Source of the DNA: Candidatus Iainarchaeum sp. | Lineage (GTDB): Archaea; Iainarchaeota; Iainarchaeia; JAADDC01 | Assembly (NCBI GenBank): GCA_030445695.1 | Contig: JASUTF010000029.1 | Location: 1-5,164, forward strand | DNA length: 5,164 bases | Direction of reading: 5' to 3' | Part shown: positions 2,493 through 5,137 of the stretch, piece after piece | Layout: each line of letters begins with the position of its first letter | How positions within the stretch are numbered: the stretch's first letter is position 1 | Notes under the pieces: generated by a model | Databases searched by the model: none | What the model saw: only the letters and a program-made list of their open reading frames with translations | What the model was told of the DNA's origin: nothing | Position numbers and translations under genes: made by a program

Positions 2493-2523
2493 AGGGGACC
2501 GAACGAATGATATGTGCAATGCA

Positions 2524-2592
2524 GCGGACAGCCCATAAGCGTTGGATGCGTTGGTCTAATACACTTCTTCTAGCATGAAGTGGGCTGTCCGC
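2524..2592 (+). repeat. Inverted repeat A (12-bp perfect stem, 45-nt loop)
   Basis: Arm GCGGACAGCCCA (2524-2535) pairs with TGGGCTGTCCGC (2581-2592). The loop contains a 7-base direct repeat GCGTTGG at 2539-2545 and 2548-2554, and a small CTTC/GAAG stem (2567-2570 with 2577-2580) abutting the long one. Confidence 0.85.
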
Positions 2593-2625
2593 ACGGTTGA
2601 GCTCTTTTCTGCAAAACCGTGCGGA
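2588..2625 (+). repeat. Inverted repeat B (11-bp perfect stem, 16-nt loop), alternative to A and C
   Basis: Arm TCCGCACGGTT (2588-2598) pairs with AACCGTGCGGA (2615-2625). It shares 2588-2592 with the 3' arm of A and 2615-2625 with the loop and 3' arm of C, so B cannot form fully when A and C are complete. Confidence 0.85.
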
Positions 2626-2631
2626 AAAGAG
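2602..2631 (+). repeat. Inverted repeat C (12-bp stem with one G-U, 6-nt loop)
   Basis: Arm CTCTTTTCTGCA (2602-2613) pairs with TGCGGAAAAGAG (2620-2631), with loop AAACCG. All pairs are Watson-Crick except U2610-G2623. Compatible with A and D, incompatible with B. Confidence 0.8.
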
Positions 2632-2643
2632 GGGGTGTAGGCC

Positions 2644-2664
2644 GGCGGGGCTCCACGCCCCGCC
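2644..2664 (+). repeat. GC-rich hairpin D (8-bp perfect stem, 5-nt loop)
   Basis: GGCGGGGC and GCCCCGCC flank the loop TCCAC. It ends 19 nt before the speD TATA box. It could end or stabilise the upstream RNA. It is not a canonical terminator, because the sequence after it (TCCCATTCC) has no T run. Confidence 0.8.
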
Positions 2665-2714: not shown

Positions 2715-3140
2715 ATGGAGCCGGTTGTAGGAACGGAGGGGACGCACTTCGTCGTAGAGGCGTCGGGATGCTCCGAGGAGATCCTTTCAGACCCGAAGAG
2801 AATAGAGCAGATCTTCAAGGAGGCGGCAAGAGCCGCTAAAATGACCGTAAAGGCATCTCACTTCTTCCGTTTCAGCCCGAAAGGTGTGTCCGGCGCGGTG
2901 ATCGTTGCCGAGTCACACATATCCATACACACGTGGCCGGAACTGGGATATGCGGCCATTGACGTGTACACGTGTGGCGATTCAGACCCGGAGAAGGCGG
3001 TTGACTACATACTGAAAGCGTTCGGGGCGAAGTATGCGCACGTCTCCGAGATCCACAGGGGGATAAGGGAGGAGGACGGCACATTCACGCACACGATCCT
3101 CACCTGGGAGGAAACAGAGGAGGAGATACGGGAGGGTTAG
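2715..3140 (+). CDS. speD: S-adenosylmethionine decarboxylase proenzyme (prokaryotic class 1B type)
   Basis: This is a pyruvoyl-dependent decarboxylase. SpeD makes decarboxylated SAM, the aminopropyl donor for spermidine and longer polyamines. The 141 residues match the usual short archaeal/bacterial form. The self-processing site is AESHISIHTWPE: cleavage is expected between Glu66 and Ser67, turning Ser67 into the pyruvoyl group; His72 is the processing histidine. YTCG gives the catalytic Cys87. HFVVEASGC near the start and AHVSEIHRGI (108-117) are further family blocks. The start at 2715 fits the homologous N-terminus and the TATA spacing. Some archaeal members of this fold decarboxylate arginine instead, and recent work on SpeD-like proteins shows further substrate changes, so the substrate is inferred from closeness to typical SpeD. 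No spermidine synthase is in the window. Confidence 0.95.
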   Translation: MEPVVGTEGTHFVVEASGCSEEILSDPKRIEQIFKEAARAAKMTVKASHFFRFSPKGVSGAVIVAESHISIHTWPELGYAAIDVYTCGDSDPEKAVDYILKAFGAKYAHVSEIHRGIREEDGTFTHTILTWEETEEEIREG

Positions 3141-5086: not shown

Positions 5087-5106
5087 AGAGGCAGCGTAAC
5101 CGCAAC

Positions 5107-5115
5107 CTTTTTATT
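5107..5115 (+). promoter_or_regulatory. TATA-like box of the gene entering the right edge
   Basis: CTTTTTATT is centred about 26 nt before ATG 5138, the same spacing as the other leaderless starts here. It lies 20 nt after the stop of the preceding gene, so it could instead be a T-rich termination signal for that gene, or serve both roles. Confidence 0.5.
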
Positions 5116-5137
5116 CTCCTTAACTCCGATGGTAGGG

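Follow-up and report, generated by a model that had tools for sequence, protein, structure and literature searches.

A candidate small RNA gene with a putative short ORF upstream of speD in Candidatus Iainarchaeum

The 290 nt that separate a divergent radical SAM gene from speD in the uncultivated archaeon Candidatus Iainarchaeum sp. contain an element made of several long hairpins. Do these hairpins act as a leader of speD, or do they belong to an RNA gene of their own? The original prediction left both answers standing, a new small RNA or a leader that switches between two structures. The window, i.e. the whole stretch of 5,164 nt analyzed here, corresponds to contig C25 in an archaeal genome of 664 kb (G000; congeners G001 to G004), of which 20 stretches covering 287 kb were examined. 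All statements on promoters and ORFs are computational. Table 1 gives the location of the element and of its neighbors.

Table 1. Location of the element, its parts and the neighboring genes in the window
Feature	Position	Strand	Remarks
ParE-like toxin gene	515-799
133-aa ORF	831-1232	minus
Radical SAM/SPASM gene	1219-2424	minus
TATA-like box of the element (GCATTAAAAT)	2483-2492	plus	5.89 on the promoter matrix; 0.15% of genome positions score as high
Short ORF (MQRTAHKRWMRWSNTLLLA-stop)	2519-2578	plus	further in-frame ATG at 2507
Hairpin A, 5′ arm	2524-2535	plus	inside the short ORF; kept in G004 and G001
Hairpin A, 3′ arm	2581-2592	plus	begins 2 nt past the stop codon
Stem B, 5′ arm	2588-2598	plus	overlaps A; identical in G004, not formed in G001
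Stem B, 3′ arm	2615-2625	plus	overlaps C and the shared motif
Stem C, 5′ arm	2602-2613	plus	pairing not kept in G004 or G001
Stem C, 3′ arm	2620-2631	plus
Shared motif (AACCGTGCGGA-n-GAGGGGGTGTAGGCC)	2615-2643	plus	core TGCGGACGGAGGGG(G)
GC hairpin D (GGCGGGGC / GCCCCGCC)	2644-2664	plus	arms 2644-2651/2657-2664
TATA-like box of speD (ACCTTATAAG)	2682-2691	plus	score 6.4; 33 nt before the ATG
speD, S-adenosylmethionine decarboxylase	2715-3140	plus	neighbor, outside the element
ChaN-like gene	3′ of speD

Hairpins and promoter-like boxes

The stems are present as originally described, with 12 of 12 pairs in A, 11 of 11 in B, 11 Watson-Crick pairs and one G-U in C, as well as hairpin D. That they exceed chance was borne out by 3000 dinucleotide shuffles, in which any perfect 11-bp stem appeared in 0.13% of cases and three 11-bp seeds in none. 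Against dinucleotide shuffles, the folding z score is −5.68 for positions 2500-2715 and −5.1 for positions 2515-2668, and 80 random genome windows used as a control gave a mean of −0.04 (sd 1.13). The plus-strand direction, initially deduced from the single G-U pair of C, agrees both with G-U pairs favoring plus-strand RNA and with the better folding of the plus strand in all three homologues (z scores of −5.1, −5.5 and −2.0 versus −4.2, −3.2 and −1.8 for the minus strand in G000, G004 and G001, respectively), the margin in G001 being slight. A+C+D (−73.3 kcal/mol at 37 °C) and B (−71.9 kcal/mol) are mutually exclusive and nearly isoenergetic with a gap of 1.4 kcal/mol, A+C being ahead by 2.9 kcal/mol at 75 °C. 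Neither a terminator-like U-run nor a concealed speD start is seen at D, which gives way to UCCCAUUCC, the start of speD lying 50 nt further on.

An Rfam covariance search of the element returned no match at E values up to 5, SAM riboswitches, archaeal SRP RNA and RNase P RNA included. We discarded the idea of a fragment of a permuted or split SRP RNA, an intact SRP RNA being encoded on another contig (C13), as well as that of a divergent RNase P RNA; Rfam finds RNase P RNA in the four congeners, and none was found in the incomplete G000. Pairing of the A loop with the motif tail as a conserved pseudoknot was likewise rejected, as it stands above shuffles in G000 only (p = 0.009; 0.46 in G004 and 0.69 in G001).

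Promoter-like sites were scored using a matrix trained on regions preceding long ORFs in the examined G000 stretches (53 of 236 such regions), the start being taken as the first ATG in frame; the TATA-like sites mostly lie 29 to 34 nt before this ATG. Just two positions between 2430 and 2715 pass the 0.3% level: 2483, located 36 nt before the short ORF, and 2682, upstream of speD. The first is the box that had been noted about 30 nt upstream of the element, while the second, like the short ORF itself, was absent from the original prediction. Both boxes also occur in G004 and G001, though further sites pass in those copies; the counterparts of the element box score 9.95 and 7.61, respectively. 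The TATA-like box of speD is found 33 to 34 nt before the ATG in G000, G001, G004 and the second speD copy of G000, and G003 has only a weak T-rich site. Because the element and speD have separate boxes, speD probably has a nearly leaderless transcript of its own, and the element would form a separate unit. Judged in silico from the TATA-like box in three genomes, the element would thus have its own promoter.

Homologues of the element and its short ORF

Two of the four congeners carry the element in front of speD. A homologue in G004 (contig C68) was detected by blastn (87% over 92 columns, E value of 1.8e-22), and a third, diverged copy was found in G001 by reading the DNA upstream of speD, its homology being deduced from its position, from hairpins A and D and from 14 matching nt of the motif. 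No element precedes speD in G002 or G003, nor the second speD copy of G000 (C9:3360-3767, L028), which encodes a protein 84% identical to the first. A covariance model built from G000 and G004 retrieved no further member within the family and missed the copy of G001.

In G001, A consists of GCGGGCC/GGCCCGC and, beyond a 2-nt bulge, 5 outer bp (GCGGACAGCCC/GGGCTGTCCGC in G000) and D of GCGGGGGC / GCCCCCGC. Both hairpins thus occupy the same positions with a different sequence and two compensated pairs each, as read from three homologues of which two are close. B has the same sequence in G000 and G004, so that this pair carries no information, and cannot form in G001, while the pairing of C is conserved in neither congener. 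Mutually exclusive hairpins are not conserved among the homologues. The predicted switch between A+C and B is possible in G000, but C is not kept elsewhere and B is missing from G001.

ORFs of 19 to 23 codons occur at the same place in all three genomes (MTSVRTALKKWLCSYRYLVIA in G004 and MLARAIKKRRRGFLNTRRLLMHW in G001). Each ends 3 to 4 nt before the 3′ arm of A and starts near the transcription start predicted from the TATA-like box. Simulations with an equal number of substitutions attain the in-frame similarity score of the G000 and G004 peptides in 0.25% of cases (p ~0.0025). No excess of third-position substitutions is observed between these two genomes (7, 7 and 9), and the similarity of the G001 peptide is at chance level (p = 0.2 and 0.46). 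The coding signal is suggestive only. Pfam and NCBIfam contain no family for the short peptides; the G001 peptide alone gave a sub-threshold match to 4PPT_N (E value of 0.05).

Related loci carrying the G-rich motif

Positions 2614-2643 are identical at 27 of 30 letters (90%) to G000:C2:45467-45495, and the core UGCGGACGGAGGGG(G) recurs in other intergenic loci of the genus that are preceded by a TATA-like box. At the C2 locus (L002, minus strand, about 1485-1560), a short TATA-preceded hairpin carrying the motif lies upstream of a type IV pilin-like gene, and the same motif hairpin is found at G001:C11:29894 (L187, near 1500), also upstream of a pilin-like gene.

A further putative RNA of approximately 140 nt, TATA-preceded and without a match in Rfam, lies between an M50 protease gene and a gene coding for a coiled-coil membrane protein (G000:C28:10774-10916; L171:1501-1640). 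It occurs in each of the five genomes of the genus with an invariant 5′ UGCGGACGGAGGGGGU and a long helix in which 11 pairs are changed on both sides (further loci L162, L168, L155 and L165; L233, L234, L235 and L236), and model R2 of this RNA gives weaker matches in the sister genus. It resembles the element by its UGCGGA(C)GGAGGGGG motif, its preceding TATA-like box, its structure and its absence from Rfam, but differs from it by its other helices, by the lack of a conserved ORF and by its distribution. Among other motif hits, one in IMG/VR (L152) was rejected as a fortuitous match within a gene of a bacterial phage, and copies of CGCGGACGGAGGGGGTT (L188, L193 and L195) were discarded as coding because their near-identical long contexts, judged by eye, are typical of a protein gene.

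Candidate readings of the element

Considering the stems, the homologues, the ORFs, the TATA-like boxes and the shared motif observed here, the reading we favor, tentatively and at somewhat less than even confidence, is an independent small RNA gene with a probable ORF within hairpin A, in which the ribosome and hairpin A would be mutually exclusive. It is possibly a dual-function RNA gene. The ‘new small RNA’ of the original prediction is thereby supported in silico, by a TATA-like box of its own, by the retention of the element in three genomes and by the absence of an Rfam match. A transcription unit of about 150 nt would start from the box at 2483 and end near hairpin D, and would encode a peptide of about 20 residues, most likely from the nearly leaderless start at 2519. 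The 5′ arm of A would then correspond to codons 2 to 6, its 3′ arm beginning just past the stop codon. Without a ribosome, A would be closed and the early codons hidden, the motif being within C or open. A ribosome on the ORF would open A, and in G000 and G004 the released 3′ arm may pair as B, thereby covering the motif, to which a common factor or RNA probably binds.

A comparable organization is offered by sRNA154 of Methanosarcina mazei, an archaeal small RNA known experimentally as a nitrogen regulator, in which a leaderless 20-aa ORF was found and for which a dual function was proposed (PMC11456600). The likeness is that of an archaeal small RNA with an ORF of about 20 aa, both the RNA and its translation being predicted in the case of the element. 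If transcribed, the element would be among the few small structured RNAs described in small-genome (DPANN) archaea, and possibly also a gene for a 20-residue peptide. The motif through which it was found is also borne by a covarying, unlisted RNA that occurs throughout the family.

A non-coding small RNA expressed from the same promoter, in which A, D and the motif are functional and the ORF is accidental, follows close behind as a possible explanation, to which we give roughly one chance in three. The strong stems, the shared motif and the weakness of the coding signal are all compatible with it, as are related motif loci, such as the covarying RNA next to the M50 protease gene, that have no conserved ORF. 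It leaves unaccounted for the presence of an ORF in three of three genomes, with its start and stop fixed relative to the TATA-like box and hairpin A.

We consider it improbable that the element is a leader of speD, in which transcripts reading through into speD would include the ORF and the hairpins, and these would attenuate polyamine synthesis through coupling to translation. Such an arrangement would be analogous to speFL of E. coli, a short ORF in a structured RNA on the same mRNA as speF, where ornithine stalls the ribosome just before the stop codon (PMC7815308). The resemblance lies in a short ORF within a structured RNA that precedes a gene for polyamine synthesis, and is reinforced by the position upstream of speD in three genomes and by the exclusive, nearly equal-energy stems A and B. 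However, speFL shares its mRNA with speF whereas speD appears to have its own promoter, and it is the recurrence of this box before speD, second copy included, that makes a leader unlikely. The absence of the element before speD in two congeners and before the second copy, the lack of a U-run after D and the unconserved C also argue against the switching leader originally envisaged. Control of speD does not have to involve a leader switch in this lineage.

Still less probable is a decaying or selfish hairpin element devoid of cell function, which would fit the patchy distribution within the genus and the partial copy elsewhere in the genome, but not the compensated pairs in A and D, the conserved promoter-like boxes and the same position in three species.

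The motif also resembles the 3′ end of 16S rRNA (GGGGAACCTGCGGACGGATCACCTCCT in G000, L238:2085-2124). AACC(g)TGCGGACGGA is common to this end and to the C2 locus, and the first 10 to 14 letters of the motif equal the 16S 3′ end before diverging into a G-run. Alignment scores as high as those of the C2 locus, the family-wide RNA and the window were reached in 0.06%, 0.2% and 4.5% of random 52-nt windows, respectively, these values being post hoc and uncorrected. It is a long shot, the least probable of the readings given here, that unlisted small RNAs across this DPANN family form a set that includes the element, and that their motif would copy the 16S 3′ end (the helix 45 strand and GGA: AACC-UGCGGACGGA), with a G-rich tail replacing the anti-Shine-Dalgarno, and would bind factors for recognition or maturation of that end. 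Antisense guidance by the motif was rejected for 16S rRNA, the only target tried, the pairing energies being no better than those of shuffled queries. Hairpin D of G001 and a hairpin located just downstream of 16S are alike at 17 of 19 letters.

Several features of the surroundings were also recorded. The radical SAM/SPASM protein scores under every NCBIfam equivalog cut-off shown, and the adjoining 133-aa ORF has a hydrophobic start. The radical SAM/SPASM gene was found in four of five congeners and was undetected in the incomplete G004; as it is missing at the G004 locus, its link to the element is not strict. A 33-nt direct repeat with a TATA-like core (94%; positions 281-313 and 802-834) brackets the ParE-like toxin cassette (339-799), and an inverted likeness of the core of this repeat is located at positions 5105-5119.
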